From Elusimicrobiaceae bacterium (GTDB taxonomy: Bacteria; Elusimicrobiota; Elusimicrobia; Elusimicrobiales; Elusimicrobiaceae): DNA of 64,000 bases. The notes beneath the pieces are model-generated. The model worked only from the letters and a program-made list of their open reading frames with translations, was not told where the DNA came from and ran no database searches. The position numbers and the translations under genes were made by a program. Of this stretch, positions 53,297 through 64,000 are shown in pieces; position 1 is the stretch's first letter; every line of letters begins with the position of its first letter. The stretch covers positions 1 through 64,000 of the forward strand of contig JAFXUJ010000007.1 of the NCBI GenBank assembly GCA_017525025.1, given 5' to 3'.

Positions 53297-53335
53297 TATC
53301 ATCCCCGCTATAAGCATACGGGGATGATATTTTTT
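53297..53335 (+). terminator. Intrinsic terminator of the long operon
   Basis: An 11-bp stem TATCATCCCCG/CGGGGATGATA (53297-53307, 53319-53329) has an 11-base loop and a following T6. It closes the run of eleven genes. Confidence 0.9.
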
Positions 53336-53410
53336 AAGAGCCGGAAAACGCTTGAAAACGATTATTTTTTCTATCCTTTTTCTCCGCCGTAAAAAAATCA
53401 AAAAAAATAG

Positions 53411-53439
53411 TTGACAACACGCCCAAAAGTTGCGAAAAT
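53411..53439 (+). promoter_or_regulatory. Promoter of the giant secreted protein
   Basis: A perfect TTGACA (53411-53416) is followed at 17 bases by an extended -10 TGC-GAAAAT (53431-53439). The start point is predicted near 53446. Confidence 0.65.
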
Positions 53440-53445
53440 GTAAAG

Positions 53446-53564
53446 GTACTGTATCGGCGTGTTTTTGAAGAAACTTAAACGCGTCGTTTTGCGCGTTTAT
53501 TTTGGCGCATGGATTTGTTGTTATTAAATTTAAATTAAGGGTGCCCCACATAGGGATTATATAC
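53446..53564 (+). promoter_or_regulatory. Long 5' leader with hairpin
   Basis: A leader of about 119 bases precedes the ATG. It contains AAACGCG (53477-53483) and CGCGTTT (53492-53498), a 7-bp hairpin followed by ATTTT, which could act as an attenuator or stabilise the message. I recognise no riboswitch in it. AGGGA lies 9 bases before the ATG. Confidence 0.4.
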
Positions 53565-56500
53565 ATGAATAAAATTAAGAATTTACTTTCTGTTTCACTC
53601 GGTAAATTGGCCGCATTGGCTCTTTTATCGGCGGTAGTATTTGCAGCGGCTACGCCCGCCCTCGCGCAGACAGCAGATGTACGTTATGCCGGTGTGTTTT
53701 ATCAGGATAATCCTTCCACTGTTAACGGTATGTACTGTGATTATGCCATAGAAACTTTTGGAACTGCCGGTAATAAAAGTAATGTGCAATTTCTAAACGA
53801 TATTGTGCAATTCAATTTTACCGGAAACACTTTTGGGGAAGGAAGCCCGGTAACCATACGGTATCAGTTTGACCACAATACAACGACAGCCCCTACTTCC
53901 ATTTCGGAACGCCAAACAAATACGGCGTACAGTTTGGGAGATCAGTTTTATTTATTATACAACGGTAATTATTTAGTATTTTCTGTAACCCAAGCCGGTA
54001 CAACATCCGACAATACCAATGCGCAAATGTTGTTTTTGATGGCAACCCTTTTTGGAAGCTTTACTTATCCTTCTACGCCAATTACAGATGGTTCATTAAC
54101 GGTTTCTTATTCTACCTCCGGTTCCGGTAGCGAGCGCATTCCCGGGGCCCCCTACGGTGTAGGAGATACTTATTGGGTGGAAGATTCTGCCGGTATTAGA
54201 CGATATTTCACAGTTACGAATGCTACCCAAACCAGTAGTGGTATTAATATCGCCGCGGGAACTGTTGACAACCGCAGTTTTACGCATGGTATTTCCCCTA
54301 GTAGTTCCCAAAACGGGACGGATCCGTGGGTCAGCTCTGCTCTTATTGAATATGACCAACCTTATCCGTCGGCAGTTCCGTCGCAAAATGAGTATCCTAA
54401 CCATTGTTTAGCTCTTTGTATGAACGTGGTGTGTACGAATAAGCCCATGTCTCAAAGTACGTATTCTATTGCGTTTCCGTTACAAAACATTAAGTTTGAC
54501 ATCGTTAAATACTATAACAACAAGAACGTAGAAAACCCGGAAGAAACTCCCGCAGTTCGCACCATTGACTTGTACCCGGACTTGGAAGAAGCTAAATGTG
54601 GGTCGTATGCCTGTGGCGGTGCAGTCGCCGGGAATCCTTGCACATCAGCCGAATATGTTTGCGATAGAAATATTTGTAACTATTGGTGTACAGGTTCTGG
54701 GTGTGAAGAGTCAGATTTTAAAAATATGTGCCACAAGAGGACGGAGTCTGGTGGCTATCAATGGAACGATAGCGCTCAATGTTGTAGGATTTCCGATAGT
54801 ACGGATTGCGATGTCCCAAGCAATGTTTGTGGTAATTATGGCGAAAACTGCATGATTTTTAATAACGATGGTACCCCAACCAATCAAGCTATTCCGTTCT
54901 GTGCGGCGTGGGATGGGTCATACGATATCGCGGGCGAATTTGGTAAAACAAACGGTACATTTGCTTTCCGCGCGACGGTAGCCACGGACGTGCCCGGCGA
55001 TAATATCATTACCGATAAAATCCAATTCAATTCTACGATTGCCTACCCGGGTATGAACCAAATACCGATACGGGTAGACGTAACCAACATCCATACCGTG
55101 CGCAGTACGCCCAGTTTGGTGGGTAACATTACTGCCGTTTCCGCCCAGCCGTATACGTATGCGTATCGGTTGAGTAAGGATTCAGATGTACGCATTGCCG
55201 TCATGGATGCCTCTACGGACGACGATGTGCAATACGGAGCTACATCAAGCCAAACCGGAGACCCAGCCTATATCTGGGACGTTGCTTCTCGCGATATTGT
55301 CCGCACCTTAGTAGATTGGCAACCGCGATTAGGCGAAGGTATGAAAGGGATTGACCCGGACGTGCAAATTACGGAATTTGACTCTTGGGACGGCCGCAAT
55401 GACGACGGGCTTTTCTTGCCGGCGGGTAATTATGTGGTAGCCTTGCAAGCCAAATCACAAGACGAATGGCCGGGGATTGACTTCTCCCGTGCCGTTACGC
55501 GTCAACTTTCGTTAGACCCCTTGAAACTGACCGACGTGGTAGCTACCGGCTTAACCAAACAGTCTACGGCGTATGCCAGTATAGCTTATACACCGACGGA
55601 ATCTTCTAAAGTATATTGGTATATATACACGCCGGGTACAACTTTTGGCAATGATGTTTCCACTCCCAATGCGGTATTGACCAACTCGGCCGCTCCTACA
55701 GGTACGGAACCCAGTGTTACCGGGGCGACCGGGAGCCCTGTTTTTGTGTTAACGGAAGACCGCGTGGGACGTATGAATTTTACCAGCAAATGGAACGGAT
55801 TATGCGGTATGGACGGCACGGTGCCTTTCCACTTGGCCCAAAACCAAGCGTATCCTACGGGGGCTGTAGATAATTTGCCCGGGCAAAACCCGCAACCGTT
55901 AACCGGGACCTGTACGAATGCGGATGGTTGTACCTATTATATGCCCCAGTGCGTGCGCACCTATGCCGAACATGAAAAGATGTCCGACGGCGGTTACTGC
56001 GGAGACACGCTTCACCCGTTTGTATCGGGCAATATCTGCCAAGAAACATTTGAATACGGGGCTCCGTTACCGGACGGCAATTACGTCTATGCCTTGTGGG
56101 CGGAAATCCCGTATAACGGTTGTTACTACAATAAATCCAGTAGTTGGACGGACGGTACGAACACAGCCCCGTATTTTGATGCCGGTAATGCGTGCGGCGC
56201 TAACGGTACTTTGCCTAACGGGGCCTTGAATGGCCAAGCTTTTAGCGGTGTAAAAACCTTAAAATATGATATCGGCCAAGTGGCTATTGAACGCGGTGTA
56301 GTGGATATTACCATGCAGCCGGTCAGCTACTCTACCGTGGGTTCCAGCCCGACGGCGTTTGGTTTGGATCCGTTCATTTTCAAATACTCTATTGCGCGTG
56401 ATGCTACCGTGGTAGCCAAAGTAACCAACAGCGCCGGTACCGTTACGGTTAAGTACTTAACGCCGGAAACCGGTATTACCCAAGTGGCCCAACAGATGAA

Positions 56501-58943
56501 TACCCTCTCTTGGGACGGACGGGATGACGCCGGCCGTATGGTTTACCCCGGTACTTATATGTTTGTGGTAGAAGCTAAAGATGCCATGTTCCCGGCGGTA
56601 ACGAATCGTGCGTCTGTGGTGTTCCCGGTGGATATGTACCGCTTGGTGGACCTCTCTACTACCGATGTGTACGGCGACAGCAATGCAAAAGCGACTTTGT
56701 CTTACACGCTTTCCAAAGCGATGAACGTGCAGGTAAATATATATAATAAGGATATCGTCATTCCCAATTACAATTCTGCTACCGGGGATTATAACGATAT
56801 CACGATTACGTCCAGTGCTACGGGTATGGGATATGCAGATGCGCTCCCGGCCTCGCTTACCTTTACTTTGAGTGACGGTTCTACGTATACGGGAACTTCC
56901 GCAACGGAAGGTACGGAAACGATCTATGCTACGACTTACCGCGATACGATCACGACCCGCTACAACCCCAGCTACGATGGTACCTCTACTACGTGTGATC
57001 CGACGGATCCGATGACGTGTCAGTATCGTATCTCTGTCCTACGTGAATACTTTACAACGTCGGCCACCAGTGTGGCTGCTTGGCCGCCGCGGTTGTGCGA
57101 CCAAACGACGGATGCGGCAAACTTTGTCGGCGGATATGTAGACCCCGCTACCCGGCCGCAATGTATTTATGTAAACGATACGGCTTTCACCAATTACCCG
57201 GCGGATGCGGCAGAGGCTGCTTCCGGTGTGGTAGATGTGCGCTTGCAGCCAGTCCACACCATTGAACGCACTGCTTTGAAACCGGGGGATGGTTTACAAC
57301 TGATGGAAGAGTGGGATGCGCTCTATTTCTACAATCCGCTTAAGTGCCCGGCTAACTCTACCAACTTAAAGAACTGCTTATATGAAATGGTGCCGGATGG
57401 ATCGTATCCGTTCTTTGTATCGGCTCGCTCCAATGAACCGTTTGACCGCTACTATTATAATGAAGCGACGGACGGCCCCATGACGGATCCTGCTACCGGT
57501 ACCAACTATGTGGACGGGGCTCCGTTTAGAACCATGGCCGATACCAAACAAGAAAGCTACCTCTACGCCACGGATAAAGCTGTCAGCAAACTGAACATTA
57601 CCCGCGGCCCGGTGTATTTCTTGGACGGCTCTACGGTTGTGTATCCCAATGCTCCGCAACTCTTTAATGTATCGTCCGGCCCGGTGTTCATCCCGCCGTA
57701 CGAAATTAACTTCTCCGTGTCCCGTGCGGCCACGGTGGAAGTAGCGATTGTGGCGTTACAGCCCGGTGTTTGTAACCCGGACCCGACCGTCCACCAAGAC
57801 TTGAAGAACAACATTGCCGGAGATATTTGTAAGTTTATCTCTACCATGACAATTGCCAATACGGGCCACTTTGACCCGACCATTGTTCGCAAGGCTTATT
57901 GGGACGGTACCGATAATAACGGTTACTACGTTAAACCGGGTATTTATGAAGTACGCTTAACCGCTAAAAACTACCCGGATCCCGGCCTGTATCAAACGAC
58001 CGTTAAGAGTATTACCGTCAATGCGGACCTCTTAAAAGTGTTTGATTTGTTGGAAGCCGATGGATACGCTATTGCCCAACGCGGTACCGATATGAAGATT
58101 AGCTATCAATTATCCGTACCGATGAAAGTAGGTATTCAAATTTTCAAACCGGGTACCACTATTTACGATTACCAAAAAGGCACCTTGCGTAACCCCACCA
58201 CGGGTTCGGAAGTGAAAGATATTCGTGAAGTTTTGGTTAAGGCTATCACCGGTATCCGCCCCGGCACTACGCTGATTGAAGAAGTCTGGGACGGAACGGA
58301 CTACGCCGGCCAAGAAGTGCCTGACGGAACCTATCCGTTCCGCTTTGTAACGGCCTTGAACTCGGCCGATATTGACTCGGTAACGGGTGAGATTATTGGG
58401 GATTGGGCCCAAACGGATGGCGACCCCAACCCGGCCAACTGGAAGGTCAACCGCGTGGCTGATACGTATGAGTATCAAAACTTGCACAAAGCCACCATTG
58501 CTATCGGGGACGGACGCTTCGTCTGCGAAGACTGGGAGAAAACGGTATTCTTCTATCCCAACCCGTTTAATACTACCAACGGTACGCTTGAAATTACCAA
58601 GATGCCGGTGCCGGGTGAAATGTCCATTAAATACTATAACCTGGCGGGCGACTTAGTGCGTGATAGCGAATACACTTGTGTGGATGCCAATAACTATCAA
58701 GTAACTATGGGTAGTAGTTTAACGTTCAACCCGGATAACACACCGGACGGCTCCACACAGATGTCGGAAGCGGATTTACTGGCCTTCCCCAACGTACGCA
58801 ACGCGGCGATGCGCTGCCGCTGGGATAAGAACAACCAGCACAAGAAGAAAGTTGCGCGCGGTGTATACTTCGCCTTGGTAGATTTTAAAGCGAAAATGGG
58901 CCGCGAGCATTGCCAAAAAGTTGTAAAGATTTTGATTCCGTAA
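53565..58943 (+). CDS. Giant secreted protein with FlgD-like Ig repeats and a T9SS-like C-terminal domain
   Basis: A 1792-residue protein. Signal peptide (1-34, ending TPALA-Q) is followed by a unique N-terminal region and a Cys-rich stretch (about 345-440). Then come at least six FlgD-like Ig modules, each marked by W-D/N-G and a PxGxYxxxxxA strand (Trp at 608, 743, 983, 1250, 1446 and 1575). The C-terminal part starts with YPNPF (1664-1668) and ends with a GVYFALVDFKAK and KVVKILIP pair, which resembles type A sorting domains of type IX secretion. The ATG at 53565 is the first residue of the signal peptide. A PorV-like gene follows. It is probably displayed on or released from the surface; its target is unknown. 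Confidence 0.82.
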   Translation: MNKIKNLLSVSLGKLAALALLSAVVFAAATPALAQTADVRYAGVFYQDNPSTVNGMYCDYAIETFGTAGNKSNVQFLNDIVQFNFTGNTFGEGSPVTIRYQFDHNTTTAPTSISERQTNTAYSLGDQFYLLYNGNYLVFSVTQAGTTSDNTNAQMLFLMATLFGSFTYPSTPITDGSLTVSYSTSGSGSERIPGAPYGVGDTYWVEDSAGIRRYFTVTNATQTSSGINIAAGTVDNRSFTHGISPSSSQNGTDPWVSSALIEYDQPYPSAVPSQNEYPNHCLALCMNVVCTNKPMSQSTYSIAFPLQNIKFDIVKYYNNKNVENPEETPAVRTIDLYPDLEEAKCGSYACGGAVAGNPCTSAEYVCDRNICNYWCTGSGCEESDFKNMCHKRTESGGYQWNDSAQCCRISDSTDCDVPSNVCGNYGENCMIFNNDGTPTNQAIPFCAAWDGSYDIAGEFGKTNGTFAFRATVATDVPGDNIITDKIQFNSTIAYPGMNQIPIRVDVTNIHTVRSTPSLVGNITAVSAQPYTYAYRLSKDSDVRIAVMDASTDDDVQYGATSSQTGDPAYIWDVASRDIVRTLVDWQPRLGEGMKGIDPDVQITEFDSWDGRNDDGLFLPAGNYVVALQAKSQDEWPGIDFSRAVTRQLSLDPLKLTDVVATGLTKQSTAYASIAYTPTESSKVYWYIYTPGTTFGNDVSTPNAVLTNSAAPTGTEPSVTGATGSPVFVLTEDRVGRMNFTSKWNGLCGMDGTVPFHLAQNQAYPTGAVDNLPGQNPQPLTGTCTNADGCTYYMPQCVRTYAEHEKMSDGGYCGDTLHPFVSGNICQETFEYGAPLPDGNYVYALWAEIPYNGCYYNKSSSWTDGTNTAPYFDAGNACGANGTLPNGALNGQAFSGVKTLKYDIGQVAIERGVVDITMQPVSYSTVGSSPTAFGLDPFIFKYSIARDATVVAKVTNSAGTVTVKYLTPETGITQVAQQMNTLSWDGRDDAGRMVYPGTYMFVVEAKDAMFPAVTNRASVVFPVDMYRLVDLSTTDVYGDSNAKATLSYTLSKAMNVQVNIYNKDIVIPNYNSATGDYNDITITSSATGMGYADALPASLTFTLSDGSTYTGTSATEGTETIYATTYRDTITTRYNPSYDGTSTTCDPTDPMTCQYRISVLREYFTTSATSVAAWPPRLCDQTTDAANFVGGYVDPATRPQCIYVNDTAFTNYPADAAEAASGVVDVRLQPVHTIERTALKPGDGLQLMEEWDALYFYNPLKCPANSTNLKNCLYEMVPDGSYPFFVSARSNEPFDRYYYNEATDGPMTDPATGTNYVDGAPFRTMADTKQESYLYATDKAVSKLNITRGPVYFLDGSTVVYPNAPQLFNVSSGPVFIPPYEINFSVSRAATVEVAIVALQPGVCNPDPTVHQDLKNNIAGDICKFISTMTIANTGHFDPTIVRKAYWDGTDNNGYYVKPGIYEVRLTAKNYPDPGLYQTTVKSITVNADLLKVFDLLEADGYAIAQRGTDMKISYQLSVPMKVGIQIFKPGTTIYDYQKGTLRNPTTGSEVKDIREVLVKAITGIRPGTTLIEEVWDGTDYAGQEVPDGTYPFRFVTALNSADIDSVTGEIIGDWAQTDGDPNPANWKVNRVADTYEYQNLHKATIAIGDGRFVCEDWEKTVFFYPNPFNTTNGTLEITKMPVPGEMSIKYYNLAGDLVRDSEYTCVDANNYQVTMGSSLTFNPDNTPDGSTQMSEADLLAFPNVRNAAMRCRWDKNNQHKKKVARGVYFALVDFKAKMGREHCQKVVKILIP

Positions 58944-58949
58944 CTTGCG

Positions 58950-58967
58950 CGGGGGCGTAAGCCCCCG
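58950..58967 (+). terminator. GC hairpin, possible weak terminator
   Basis: CGGGGGC-GTAA-GCCCCCG is a perfect 7-bp hairpin just after the giant gene, but no T tract follows. It may protect the mRNA end or reduce read-through into the PorV-like gene. Confidence 0.4.
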
Positions 58968-59045
58968 GCAGGCGGAAAAACAAGCAGTAGCAGTAAATGT
59001 TGTGTGAAGTTAAATTAACTTTTCCGGAGAAACGGAACGAGATTT

Positions 59046-60026
59046 ATGAATATCAAAATGAAAGTTTTAGCAGTTTGTTTAGCCGTCGGTTTGAGTGGAT
59101 TGCCCGCTTGGGCCGATATTAACGATTATGCCGGTACCAGCGCGAGTGCATTTTTGAAAATCGGTGCCGGAACTCCTACCGCACAGGCGTTAGGTAATGC
59201 CTATGTGTCTGTTGCGGAGGGGCCGGAAGCCCTATTTTGGAACCCGGCCGGGGCTGCTTCGGCAACGACGCGTGAACTGCAATTTTCGTATTTGAGTTAT
59301 TTACAAGGATATAAAGCCCGTACGTTGGCGTATTTGCAACCCATTGGTAAAACTATTTTGGGTGTTTCACTCAATTATATGGACATGGATGATTTTGATT
59401 TCCGCGACTATTGGGGACACCAACAACCGGAAATCGGCGTGCCGGTGCAGAATTTTGTAGGTAGTTTATCCATCGCCCGCGGACTTTTTAACCAAAAAAT
59501 ACAAATCGGTGGTACCGCCAAGTATATTAGTGAACGTTTGTATAATGGTTCCGGCCATAATCACTACGATAATGTGGGCTTTGATGTGGGAGCCAAATTG
59601 CGCTTAGTAAAATGGTTGGGATTGGGCGGCGCTTTGGTTAATATCGGCGATAGAGATGAAATGCCTAAAGGGTTACGTTTAGGTGCGGATTTGAATACGC
59701 GCTATTTTACCGTTTCCGGCGAATATATGAAGTATGAAGACGATAATGTACGCTACGGCGTAGGTTTAGCCGTGCACATCCCGGAAGATTTACTGCAAGT
59801 AGCCCGATTTGATTTGCGCGTAGGTTATTACACGCGCACTAATACAGGGGTAAGTGAAGAATCCTGGGTATCGGATATAGGGTTAGAAGAGACCTCCCGG
59901 GTATCTTTTGGTTTCGGCCTTTATAGCTCGGAACTGTTTGGGTACGGGGCCTCGGTAGATTACGCGGTAACTCCGTTTGGAGCGCTCGGAACATCGCACC
60001 AAGTGGCGGTTTCCATACAATTTTAG
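59046..60026 (+). CDS. PorV/PorQ-family outer-membrane protein
   Basis: A 326-residue beta-barrel protein with signal peptide (1-23, ending PAWA). The family N-terminus SASAFLKIGAGTPTAQALGNAYVSVAEGPEALFWNPAG is clear, followed by alternating strands and a terminal Phe (VAVSIQF) as in outer-membrane proteins. In Bacteroidetes, PorV shuttles type IX cargo; here the presumed cargo gene is directly upstream. No other type IX component is in the window. It is followed after 2 bases by a small prepilin gene, so it may share the Tad transcript. Confidence 0.85.
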   Translation: MNIKMKVLAVCLAVGLSGLPAWADINDYAGTSASAFLKIGAGTPTAQALGNAYVSVAEGPEALFWNPAGAASATTRELQFSYLSYLQGYKARTLAYLQPIGKTILGVSLNYMDMDDFDFRDYWGHQQPEIGVPVQNFVGSLSIARGLFNQKIQIGGTAKYISERLYNGSGHNHYDNVGFDVGAKLRLVKWLGLGGALVNIGDRDEMPKGLRLGADLNTRYFTVSGEYMKYEDDNVRYGVGLAVHIPEDLLQVARFDLRVGYYTRTNTGVSEESWVSDIGLEETSRVSFGFGLYSSELFGYGASVDYAVTPFGALGTSHQVAVSIQF

Positions 60027-60028
60027 GT

Positions 60029-60211
60029 ATGTATAAAAAAGGGAAAAACCTGTTTAATAAAAGAGGACAAACCGCAGTAGAATATATGATTGTGGCGGCC
60101 AGTTTATTTACGGCGTTTATTTCCTTTTATGTGTTGTACTCGCACCTGGTTCCCCAGCAGTTTGATAAGGGTGCACAAGTTATTTTAGTGGAATACGAAG
60201 CCGGACAATAG
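60029..60211 (+). CDS. Small class III prepilin / TadE-like pseudopilin
   Basis: A 60-residue protein. A basic leader (MYKKGKNLFNKRG) precedes QTAVEYMIVAASLFTAFIS: a Gln-x-x-x-Glu-Tyr start of the mature part and one hydrophobic helix, as in Flp pilins and TadE/TadF proteins. The rest is 25 residues. It lies between the PorV-like gene and a Flp pilin gene and is likely processed by the Tad prepilin peptidase, which is not in the window. Confidence 0.75.
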   Translation: MYKKGKNLFNKRGQTAVEYMIVAASLFTAFISFYVLYSHLVPQQFDKGAQVILVEYEAGQ

Positions 60212-60235
60212 TTTTATAAATCAGGAGGACGGACT

Positions 60236-60472
60236 ATGAAGTTTATCGTTGCAGTACAAAACAGAATGAATGCCCTTAAAGCGCAAGCTTTGGGTTGTTT
60301 GAAGAAAAAAGAAGGCCAAAACACCATTGAATACGTGCTCATGCTCGTAGTAGTGGTAGGTGTGGCCGGTTTGGCTGGCGTGCTTATTAAAAGATTCATG
60401 CCGGATTTGTTTGACCAAGTCAAAGCCAAAATCTTGGGCGGTATGGATAAAGCCTCAGAGACCAATTATTAA
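60236..60472 (+). CDS. flp: Flp-family type IVb pilin
   Basis: A 78-residue protein. After a leader of about 25 residues the cleavage region KKEGQNTIEYVLMLVVVVGVAG gives Glu-Tyr at positions 5-6 of the mature pilin and one helix, followed by a short amphipathic tail. It is the probable main subunit of the Tad pilus. The AGGAGG ribosome site is the strongest in the locus, which fits a highly made subunit. Confidence 0.87.
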   Translation: MKFIVAVQNRMNALKAQALGCLKKKEGQNTIEYVLMLVVVVGVAGLAGVLIKRFMPDLFDQVKAKILGGMDKASETNY

Positions 60473-60475
60473 GTT

Positions 60476-60961
60476 ATGAAATTCGGTAAGAAGCGTGGTG
60501 GGCAGGTAACTGCGGAACTGATGCTGATTTTGCCGGTATTCATGTTAATGATTTTTTTCGTACTTGAATACGGCAACATCGCTTACCACACGATTATTGC
60601 TAACCATGCTTCTTACGAATTTGCCCGTATCGGCTCGCTGGTGGCCGTTAAAAAACCCAGCGGACGGCCGGATCGGACGGTCGTCATGCAGAAGATTAAC
60701 CAAGCCAAATTAAAAGTATTTGGCTCTAAGGCGGGGGGAATCGGCGTAAACGTAAAGGTGGAAACCACCGGGGCCGATCCGATGTATAAAAAACACCGCC
60801 ACGAAGATTTGGTTGTAACCGTAACATACCCGGTGCATTTGGTTTTCCCGGGGACGAGTTATGTACTCGCCAGTGAGCCGCGCCGCGAAGGAATCCGGCG
60901 GATCAGTGCCACTACCCGTATGCCGATTGAGAAAATGTATTTAAGTTCGGATACGAAATAG
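60476..60961 (+). CDS. tadE: TadE-like pseudopilin
   Basis: A 161-residue protein. RGGQVTAELMLILPVFMLM is the TadE-type start (Gln, Glu at +5, then the membrane helix). It continues with FFVLEYGNIAYHTIIANHASYEFARIGSLVA, typical of TadE, and a soluble external domain. It is a minor pilin of the Tad machine. It starts 3 bases after flp. Confidence 0.87.
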   Translation: MKFGKKRGGQVTAELMLILPVFMLMIFFVLEYGNIAYHTIIANHASYEFARIGSLVAVKKPSGRPDRTVVMQKINQAKLKVFGSKAGGIGVNVKVETTGADPMYKKHRHEDLVVTVTYPVHLVFPGTSYVLASEPRREGIRRISATTRMPIEKMYLSSDTK

Positions 60962-61002
60962 ATTTGAAGGTATTAATTTTAAAGTTGTTTTAAGGAGATA
61001 AA

Positions 61003-61755
61003 ATGAAAAGAGGGATTTTCCTGCCGTTAGTAATTGCGATTGCCGCGGCGATTGTGTACGCGATGATTGTAAGCAGCGCCGAAAAGAAGCTCAATGCTTC
61101 CAAGAACATTAAACAAGTCTTTGTTCCGATTCGCGATATTAAAGAGCGCGAAGTTATTAAGCGTGACTTTATTAAACCGGTTCCTGTTCCGGCGGCTTAT
61201 CTGCAAAAAGACGCTTTTACCTATTCTACGGATGCTGATTTTAAAGCTATTGAAAACGCCGTGGCGCGCGTCCAAATCCCTAAAGGAAACCAAATTTCCA
61301 AATACGCTATTACATCCTTATCTCCGGAAGCCGGATTGTCCAGCAAAATCCCGGTGCAAATGCGCGGATACATGGTTTCTGTGCCGTTATCTACCGCCAG
61401 CATGATTAAGCCGGATGATAACGTGGACGTACTGCTTACTTTTGAAGCGGTCATGAAAAGCGGCAGCCGCCAAAAAGTAGCCTTAACACTCTTGCAAAAT
61501 GTTAAAGTCCTGGGTGTCGGTTCGGACTTGGGCCAGGGCTTAGATATACGCGCGGCTAACGCTATGAAGAATAAAGAAGAAGATGCGGCCGCTTACTCGG
61601 ATAATTCCACCTTGGCGTTGGCTCTTTCCCCGCGGGATGCCCAGTATTTGGCGTTGGCCCAGGCGGAAGGAGATATTTCGGTTATCTTGCGTTCGCATGG
61701 TGACGTAAATAACTACTTAATGGAAATTGCGACCTTTGAAAAATTATTTAATTAA
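61003..61755 (+). CDS. cpaB: Flp pilus assembly protein CpaB/RcpC
   Basis: A 250-residue periplasmic protein with an N-terminal signal or anchor (4-24), a SAF domain (VFVPIRDIKEREVIKRDF and following) and an RcpC domain with MVSVPLSTASMIKPDDNVDVLLTF. It works with the secretin in the outer part of the Tad channel. AAGGAGA lies before the ATG. Confidence 0.9.
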   Translation: MKRGIFLPLVIAIAAAIVYAMIVSSAEKKLNASKNIKQVFVPIRDIKEREVIKRDFIKPVPVPAAYLQKDAFTYSTDADFKAIENAVARVQIPKGNQISKYAITSLSPEAGLSSKIPVQMRGYMVSVPLSTASMIKPDDNVDVLLTFEAVMKSGSRQKVALTLLQNVKVLGVGSDLGQGLDIRAANAMKNKEEDAAAYSDNSTLALALSPRDAQYLALAQAEGDISVILRSHGDVNNYLMEIATFEKLFN

Positions 61756-61765
61756 CAGGATACTT

Positions 61766-62509
61766 ATGAATAAAAAGTTAATTGCAAGGATATCTTTTTT
61801 AGTGTTGCTTTCAGGCGCGCTTTTGCCGGTAACGGCACACGCCAAGAAAACACGGCTGGTGGCCGTGAGTGCCGATGTGGTAGAAATTAGCGGAACGATG
61901 CAAAACGTCAAAGGTTTTGCCTGGAACCAATTGTTTGACTTTGAGGAAGCTTCTATCCCGGGGATCTTATCGCTGGGCGAATTCCAACGTAAAACAGCGG
62001 TCACTACGCGTCTTCGTCTAATGGAAACCGAAGGCCGCGCCCAGGTGCTTTCCAACCCTAAGATTGTTACTTCGTCCGGTAACAGCGCTAAGATCTCCGT
62101 CGGTGGTAAAGTGCCGATACCGGTAGTAAACAACCAAGGGGTAGGTTCTCAGATGGAAGATTACGGTATTTTGCTCAATGTTCTTCCTACCATCATCCCG
62201 GAACGCAACAACATTATTGATTTGCAAGTGCAATTAGCTGTATCCACGGTGGACTATTCCCGTACCGTCGTGATCGGTACGGCTACGGCGCCTTCCTTTA
62301 CCAACCGCGACGTGGAAACCCACGTAGAACTTAACAGCGGTGAAACGCTTGTAATCGGGGGTTTAAAAAGCAGTGCCCGTAACGTGTCCGAAGACCGCGT
62401 GCCGTTCTTAGGGCGCTTGCCGCTTTTAGGACTTTTATTTAAAAGTAAAGACGTAACGGAAGAACAACGCTCCCTCTTCCTGTTTATTACGGTTGAAATC
62501 GTAGAGTAA
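61766..62509 (+). CDS. cpaC: Tad secretin CpaC/RcpA, short form
   Basis: A 247-residue secretin. It has a signal peptide (1-25, ending VTAHA), a short N-terminal piece, then the secretin barrel: VTTRLRLMETEGRAQVLSNPKI, VGGKVPIPVV, YGILLNVLPTI and the C-terminal GETLVIGGLKSS...RVPFLGRLPLLGLLFKS. Usual CpaC proteins have about 400-500 residues with BON and N-domain modules; here these are missing. It starts 10 bases after cpaB. Another protein may supply the periplasmic ring. Confidence 0.87.
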   Translation: MNKKLIARISFLVLLSGALLPVTAHAKKTRLVAVSADVVEISGTMQNVKGFAWNQLFDFEEASIPGILSLGEFQRKTAVTTRLRLMETEGRAQVLSNPKIVTSSGNSAKISVGGKVPIPVVNNQGVGSQMEDYGILLNVLPTIIPERNNIIDLQVQLAVSTVDYSRTVVIGTATAPSFTNRDVETHVELNSGETLVIGGLKSSARNVSEDRVPFLGRLPLLGLLFKSKDVTEEQRSLFLFITVEIVE

Positions 62510-62512
62510 AGT

Positions 62513-64000
62513 ATGGCAGAAGAAAACGAATCTCTTCAAAGTGATGCAAAAATTATTGCCTTTGCAGGGCCGAAAGAAGGCGCCGGCAAAACTACGCTGG
62601 TACTGAATTTGGCTTTGGGTTGGGCCGGTATTCAAAAACGACCGGTGCTTATTGTGCCGCTAGACCCCTTGGCCCGCCAAGAACACAATTTTTATTTAGA
62701 TATTGCTAACCCGGTCAGCGTGTCTGACTTATTAAAGGTGTTGGGCAATACCTCTATTGCAGTAGTGGGTGGATTATTACGCGGCAAAATTTCCATGTCC
62801 CAATGGGGGGTAGGATTGCTCCCGCTGGGGAACACCCGCGCGCAAGTGGGTGCTATCAGCCCTAAAATTTTAATTCCGATTTTGTCCCGCTTATCTCAAA
62901 CTTTTGATATCTTTTTGGACGTAGATTCCAGCTTTCCGATGCAGGCCTTTGCCTTTGATATTGCAGACAAAGTGTTTTGGGTAACGAATGCTACCCGTAC
63001 GCATATCAATTCTACGGTACAGTTGTTTAACGATTATAAAGAACAACATTACCCGATGGACCGCGTCAGCATTATTTGCAACGGGTTTGATATGCCGGGA
63101 TCTATTCCTTACGAAGAAATGGAACGTTTCTACTCGCAATTAGGGCGTGAGGTAGATGTGTTCTTGCCGTGGGACGCCGATGTGATGGCAGCTTCCAACC
63201 GCCGCGAAGTGGAAATTATTTCCAACCCGCAAGCGGAATGGGTAAAGGGCCTCCGGTTAGTGTTGGCCAAAATCCGTGATTTAAAGCCGGCTCCTAAAGA
63301 TTGGACATCTTCCGTTACCGATGAAGAGTTTGCCCAAGCTTCGCAGGAAATCTGGTCGCCGCTTTTGTTAGATGACGGGCAATCTTCTTCCGCCGTGGAT
63401 CATATCCAAACCGAAGAAGAAGGGACCAAGACGAAACTATCCTTTTGGGACGATTTGAAACAAAAAATCCACAAAGAAGTGGTGCATACGCTGGAAATTG
63501 AGCACATCGTTATCAGCGACGAAAGCACCGCCAGCGAACAAACCCGCAAACGGGTGGCGGCCATTGTGGATGATATTTTACAAAAGCAACCCAACTTGCA
63601 ATTCTCGCGTGATCAACGTTCTCGCTTCTCTTCGGAACTGTTAGACGAAATTTTAGGGTTAGGGCCGCTGGAAGTCTTGATGCGCGATCCGGCCGTAACC
63701 GAAATCATGGTCAATGCCTTTGATAAGATCTTCATCGAACAAAAAGGTAAATTAACGCTTACGAAATACAAATTTAGAAATAATGATCAAGTGGTGCAAG
63801 TTATTAAACGTATCGTAGCGCCGTTAGGCCGCCGTATTGATGAATCGGTGCCGCTGGTGGACGCGCGTTTGAAAGACGGTTCCCGTGTAAACGCGATTAT
63901 TTCCCCATTGGCCGTTTCCGGTCCGACGCTGACGATTCGTCGCTTCTCTACCAAGCCGTTTGGCCCGGAAGATTATTACCGCTTTGGTACGATTACTCCG
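62513..64000 (+). CDS. CpaE-like / CpaF (TadA) fusion, 3' end outside window
   Basis: One open frame of 496 codons runs from the ATG at 62513 to the window edge without a stop. Residues 1-265 are a ParA/MinD-like CpaE domain (deviant Walker A GPKEGAGKTTLVLNLALG, ILVIVPLDP-type strand, FDIFLDVDSSFP). A linker (265-325) follows, then the N-terminal domain of a CpaF/TadA secretion ATPase: DEILGLGPLEVLMRDPAVTE, IMVNAFDKIFIEQKGKL, IDESVPLVDARLKDGSRVNA and GPTLTIRRFS. The CpaF Walker motifs would lie beyond base 64000. In most Tad loci these are separate genes. CpaE helps place the machine and CpaF powers pilus assembly. Confidence 0.87.
   Translation, partial: MAEENESLQSDAKIIAFAGPKEGAGKTTLVLNLALGWAGIQKRPVLIVPLDPLARQEHNFYLDIANPVSVSDLLKVLGNTSIAVVGGLLRGKISMSQWGVGLLPLGNTRAQVGAISPKILIPILSRLSQTFDIFLDVDSSFPMQAFAFDIADKVFWVTNATRTHINSTVQLFNDYKEQHYPMDRVSIICNGFDMPGSIPYEEMERFYSQLGREVDVFLPWDADVMAASNRREVEIISNPQAEWVKGLRLVLAKIRDLKPAPKDWTSSVTDEEFAQASQEIWSPLLLDDGQSSSAVDHIQTEEEGTKTKLSFWDDLKQKIHKEVVHTLEIEHIVISDESTASEQTRKRVAAIVDDILQKQPNLQFSRDQRSRFSSELLDEILGLGPLEVLMRDPAVTEIMVNAFDKIFIEQKGKLTLTKYKFRNNDQVVQVIKRIVAPLGRRIDESVPLVDARLKDGSRVNAIISPLAVSGPTLTIRRFSTKPFGPEDYYRFGTITP

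Follow-up and report, generated by a model that had tools for sequence, protein, structure and literature searches.

The type IX secretion system (T9SS) is described in surveys and reviews as confined to Bacteroidetes (PMC4793230, PMC7463736, PMC7906972). In Flavobacterium, cognate type B substrates and shuttles are encoded as pairs, in which the downstream carrier is required for secretion of the substrate and sets its final location (PMC12618676, PMC9143113). Tad pilus systems have been reported in Elusimicrobia by Denise et al. 2019 (PMC6668835). The locus described here lies at the end of a 64,000-nucleotide (nt) stretch of an Elusimicrobiaceae bacterium (contig JAFXUJ010000007.1 of assembly GCA_017525025.1), hereafter the window, where the genes for a giant exported protein and a PorV-family outer-membrane barrel stand at the head of a set of Tad pilus genes. 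The favoured reading, held with moderate confidence, is that class Elusimicrobia possesses a Tad operon into which a T9SS-like substrate and a carrier of its own are permanently built, and that substrate, carrier and pilus would together form a composite adhesion apparatus. The sequences compared come from metagenome assemblies.

All genes of the operon lie on the forward (+) strand. The giant protein, of 1792 amino acids (aa), is encoded at 53565..58943 from an ATG start, according to the list of open reading frames (ORFs) and family matches, and ends in a T9SS-like C-terminal sorting domain (CTD) of 132 aa with the pattern PNP...WD.N...GVYF...KILIP (58545..58940). The gene for the PorV-family barrel (326 aa, 59046..60026) follows after 102 bases, and 2 bases separate it from the first of two Flp-like pilins (60 aa, 60029..60211, motif GQTAVEYM); the second (78 aa, 60236..60472, motif GQNTIEYV) comes after a gap of 24. 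These genes are followed by tadE, which encodes a minor pilin of 161 aa (60476..60961, gap 3; TadE E=8.1e-11), cpaB/rcpC (250 aa, 61003..61755, gap 41; RcpC/CpaB E=5e-19), a gene for an unusually short cpaC-like secretin of 247 aa that consists of the secretin domain only (61766..62509, gap 10; Secretin E=1.8e-42) and a fusion of cpaE (tadZ) and cpaF (tadA) of 787 aa (gap 3; CbiA and T2SSE), which runs from 62513 to the window's end at 64000 and on to 64876. Past the window lie tadB (64885-66510), tadC (66514-67404), a TPR gene (67412-68863) and a HAMP gene (68877-69983). An ORF check reproduced exactly the reading frames, common strand and gaps given in an earlier note on this DNA. The note had listed one flp gene; a pilin gene does lie directly after the PorV gene, and a second gene for an Flp-like pilin follows it.

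The Tad parts recognised in the operon are the TadA ATPase, TadB/TadC, TadZ/CpaE, CpaB, the secretin, TadE and the Flp pilins with their GQ..E-Y class III signal. A TadV/CpaA prepilin peptidase is absent from the operon, and no search for it was made in the rest of the genome. The family library gives no match for the first pilin and a weak match only for the second, and the small pilins have no match among the PHROGs. CpaC is short throughout the class, with the secretin domain alone and N-domains not recognised (238-267 aa in most relatives), and the cpaE-cpaF fusion is found throughout the class alongside it.

Conservation of the gene order and retention of the pair

The order giant-PorV-pilins-tadE-cpaB-cpaC-cpaEF-tadB-tadC-TPR-HAMP is found throughout the window's genus and in 10 other genera of its taxonomic order. 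Of 18 further loci, which cover additional genera of the window's family as well as three other families of the class, all 18 have giant-PorV-pilins-tad, and across five families of class Elusimicrobia the arrangement holds in all loci that are long enough to show it. Among named genome records, the giant is upstream of PorV in 73 of 75 loci (the remaining two hold less than 240 nt), and tadE, cpaB and cpaC are downstream in 74 of 74; the PorV of the operon is 69-85% identical to PorV in named Candidatus Avelusimicrobium records, which makes this the most likely genus of the window. A search of the phylum with a PorV alignment returned orthologues at E<1e-56 in many families, within class Elusimicrobia only. 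Relatives outside the class score E 1e-37 or weaker, and in both loci inspected there (L109 and L110) PorV lies beside an FlgD-type giant without tad genes. The earlier note had proposed the link between cargo and pilus from gene order in a single genome, to be given up if related genomes lacked the neighbourhood; the neighbourhood is in fact conserved through class Elusimicrobia.

Genomes of the class also differ in how many PorV-like and CTD matches they have. In relatives of a second family (f2), 4-27 PorV-like matches per genome are accompanied by several to many CTDs. Of the 91 listed PorV paralogues, at least 35 are preceded on their own strand by a CTD that ends no more than 1 kb away; by CTD model A3 alone, at least 25 have such a CTD upstream, as against one with a CTD downstream and none with one in the opposite orientation, among the matches listed. 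The same arrangement, with the carrier gene directly downstream of the cargo gene, holds for the window locus. Within the window's own family (f1), two genera with larger genomes (g15 and g16) have 6-15 listed PorV and 6-12 listed CTD matches. In the window's genus and two others (g13 and g14) there is a single PorV and a single CTD, and a further genus (g12) likewise has one PorV with, in most cases, one CTD. The g13 genome is assembled as one contig (1,643,562 bases). The translocon protein SprA is retained in all of these genera, and the window's genus has one SprA, one PorV and one CTD; in the window's genome the single PorV is the operon copy and the giant is the sole match of CTD model A3. 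Lineages with a reduced system have retained precisely the pair encoded in the tad operon, and this retention argues more strongly than anything else for a mutual importance of pilus and cargo. A joint function of giant, PorV and Tad pilus is likely.

The best-surviving alternative is that the two are an ordinary T9SS-like surface protein and its carrier, which share the tad promoter for common regulation without any coupling. PorV/cargo pairs found elsewhere in many relatives would suit this explanation, as would the presence of other conserved neighbours (GGDEF, SBP and tsaD) without an obvious pilus role, yet the tad-linked pair survives where all other pairs have been lost. It also stays with tad in families where the upstream context has gone: the upstream GGDEF and SBP genes were not detected in the loci of the other families, which retain the giant-PorV-tad order. 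Such uncoupled sharing of a promoter is considered unlikely, while still deserving serious attention.

The giant protein, its proposed carrier and an SprA-like translocon

The giant consists of a Sec signal peptide, a conserved N-terminal domain, a Cys-rich insertion, FlgD-like immunoglobulin-like (Ig) repeats (FlgD_ig, E=1.2e-18) and the T9SS-like CTD, which matches CHU_C, PF18962 and the C-terminus of PorZ. When the CTDs of giants from 18 loci were compared with family models, 15 matched TIGR04183 (T9SS type A sorting domain) at E<=0.01 and 14 matched CHU_C, the window giant's own CTD scoring below the curated cut-offs. The CTD profile found nothing significant in the PDB.

Median identity within the window's genus is 62% for the giant, 77% for PorV, 86% for the CpaEF fusion and 88% for the cpaC secretin, and the small pilins vary about as much as the giant. 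Judged from the sequences, the fast change of the giant is as expected of an exposed protein. These values bear on a second alternative, in which the giant and PorV would not be a displayed adhesin but would belong to the structure of the Tad outer-membrane complex, for instance as a collar that makes up for the unusually short secretin. A CpaC that in most class members comprises about 240 aa and the secretin domain alone, together with the co-occurrence of giant, PorV and secretin, is consistent with a collar. Of the large operon products, however, the giant is one of those that change fastest, and its length ranges from about 1050 to 1810 aa, which fits an exposed protein better. A structural role of this kind is improbable.

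Several further observations concern the giant gene itself. The Cys-rich insertion (residues about 345-450) contains 14 Cys over about 105 residues in giants of the window's genus and is mostly missing from the f2 relatives. At least 12 genomes of the window's family have an assembly break within the giant's CTD upstream of PorV, and in two of these (G019 and G023) two contigs share the terminal 141 nt of the CTD and then continue into differing genes. Tandem giants occur in G063 and G135, the copies in G063 being 99.9% identical over 3.6 kb. Together, the breaks and tandem genes suggest extra copies of the giant gene or recombination at it. An apparent giant-PorV fusion in a single ORF (G045, locus L047) was rejected because of a frameshift at the end of the CTD and because PorV retains its ribosome site and signal peptide.

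The PorV-like protein scores 86.4 bits against PorV_fam (cut-off 90). Its predicted structure (pLDDT 72, 14 strands) has PorV in SprA complexes as its top two PDB structure matches (8gl6_F and 6h3i_F), with FadL barrels next, and the only match of its profile to PDB sequences is again PorV (6h3i_F, E=3.4e-4). The barrel is proposed to be the dedicated shuttle or anchor of the giant. The translocon itself is encoded outside the operon: a gene for an SprA/Sov-like protein of 1761 aa lies at about 35064-40349 of contig C2 of the window's genome (G000:C2; L083:8065-13350) and matches TIGR04189 at E=4.2e-33 and 113.8 bits (cut-off 200) in several collinear stretches. Homologous proteins in relatives are 1750-1900 aa long and match TIGR04189 at up to E=2e-42. 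A search with an SprA alignment gave a match in 164 of 199 Elusimicrobiota genomes, for the most part at full length and, in most, as a single copy; the listed genomes that lack a match come mostly from a single genus whose genomes are small. The candidate had no match in a Pfam scan, nor did the SprA profile match the PDB. An SprA/PorV/CTD pathway is nearly phylum-wide in Elusimicrobiota, although T9SS is described as limited to Bacteroidetes.

It is very improbable that PorV is a FadL-like uptake barrel and that the giant leaves by another route, such as the Tad machine, with no T9SS-like pathway at all: FadL barrels are the next-best fold matches and the T9SS motor and sortase went undetected (in searches that had no positive control), but PorV outranks FadL by fold and is the only sequence-profile match, CTD and PorV genes are paired and an SprA homologue is nearly universal in the phylum.

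Predicted transcription signals and flanking genes

A terminator-like hairpin with a run of six T (T6) lies 3' of the upstream GGDEF gene on the + strand (about 53297..53336; from sequence and folding), and a promoter-like site with an extended -10, TTGACA-N17-GAAAAT, is located at 53411..53439 on the same strand. The latter was identified by a 10/12 consensus match only, in a scan that overall gave no excess of sites over shuffled sequences. Given these two features, the GGDEF gene is probably a separate transcript and the operon most likely starts at the 53411 site. In family f2 (e.g. L041), two extra genes, for a possible second barrel protein and a protein of 570-590 aa, are found between GGDEF and the giant.

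Within the operon, folding indicates a strong GC-rich hairpin without a T run just 3' of the giant's stop (58944..58973, +), which is present in some relatives and missing in others; a guess is that it sets the ratio of giant to PorV. A scan of the + strand from 58944 to 60029 listed neither a terminator nor a promoter. The earlier note had held that both of these between the PorV gene and flp would break the link with the pilus, and the 2-base gap there contains neither.

Downstream of the HAMP gene, the segment G000:C7:70296-76889 holds a lipoprotein-like gene, genes resembling those for a sensor kinase and a response regulator, and two further TadE/TadG-like proteins, and the tad region may extend to about 76.9 kb.

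Proposed mechanism and comparison with known systems

In the proposed mechanism, the giant would cross the inner membrane via Sec, be recognised through its CTD and be exported by the SprA/Sov-like translocon encoded elsewhere in the genome. The PorV-family barrel would then take over the giant and keep it at the surface of the cell. Since giant and carrier are produced along with the pilus, and since the Flavobacterium carrier decides where its substrate is located, the carrier would most likely place the giant with the Tad apparatus and so give rise to a composite adhesion structure. Export by the SprA/PorV route is, on the evidence of the sequences, highly likely. The giant is presumably a surface protein with an adhesive function, its route being modelled on T9SS biology. 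Direct physical docking of the giant and PorV to the pilus is a more tentative proposal, drawn by analogy. The same caution applies to the full composite machine, in which a T9SS-like translocon, whose sole recognisable client in several reduced Elusimicrobia is the giant adhesin, would serve a protein docked by PorV on the Tad pilus in a manner comparable to SprF and SprB; this picture is possible but somewhat doubtful.

Several points weigh against this account. A shared operon is no proof of contact between giant and pilus, and the hairpin after the giant gene could uncouple the expression of giant and PorV. The PorV and SprA-like matches fall under curated cut-offs. The giant's N-terminal domain has no significant fold match in the PDB (best E=7e-3, to adhesin repeat domains), and therefore the adhesive role is suggested by the architecture alone. 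The remaining points concern other T9SS components. The earlier note had spoken of type IX secretion parts and advised a search for further Por proteins and Sov. A full-length SprA/Sov-like gene is present, the best match of the barrel is PorV and the CTDs match the type A sorting domain, which strengthens this portion of the claim. No convincing homologue of PorL/PorM (GldL/GldM) or PorU was found: the GldM (PorM) model matched 0 of 61 genomes, the GldL (PorL) model one of 41, weakly, and the model for the PorU sortase (Peptidase_C25) 0 of 61, and these negatives are not taken as absence since the models gave no match in the control genomes either. The system is taken to work like the SprA/PorV/CTD part of T9SS and, because recognisable GldL, GldM and PorU were not found, is termed T9SS-like, with no claim of a complete T9SS.

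Should the coupling of cargo and pilus prove real, Tad pili would, like gliding motors, count as recipients of T9SS-type surface proteins. The reduced Elusimicrobiaceae, with one translocon, one carrier and one recognisable client, would then be a natural minimal case for the essential parts of T9SS and for the powering of export without recognisable PorL/PorM. The locus is of interest because, across most of a little-known bacterial class, a client pair has been retained as part of the Tad pilus operon.

Among described arrangements, the FlgD-Ig/PorV pairs elsewhere in Elusimicrobiota have the same order of cargo and then PorV, with no tad link in the two out-of-class loci. Known Tad (Flp) pilus loci share flp, tadE, cpaB, cpaC, cpaE, cpaF, tadB and tadC with the operon, which differs from them in the fusion of cpaE and cpaF, a secretin cut to its core domain, and the giant and PorV genes in front. 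The T9SS of Bacteroidota has in common with the present system an SprA/Sov-like translocon, a PorV-family barrel and a Sec-exported substrate with a T9SS-like (type A) CTD. Unlike that system, the one described here occurs outside Bacteroidota, has its substrate and carrier within a tad operon, has a single recognisable client in several lineages and has GldL, GldM and PorU unrecognised. A parallel to the pair itself is given by SprB-SprF and other pairs of type B CTD proteins with PorP-like carriers (PMC9143113, PMC12618676), where the gene for a very large surface protein is likewise followed immediately by that for its carrier and where a genome has many cognate pairs, as the relatives do here. 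The carrier in the window is of the PorV family and not PorP/SprF, and the CTD is nearest to type A models. In SprB-SprF-type pairs the carrier decides the destination; the same is proposed here by analogy, with the Tad pilus, in place of the gliding motor, as the partner machine.
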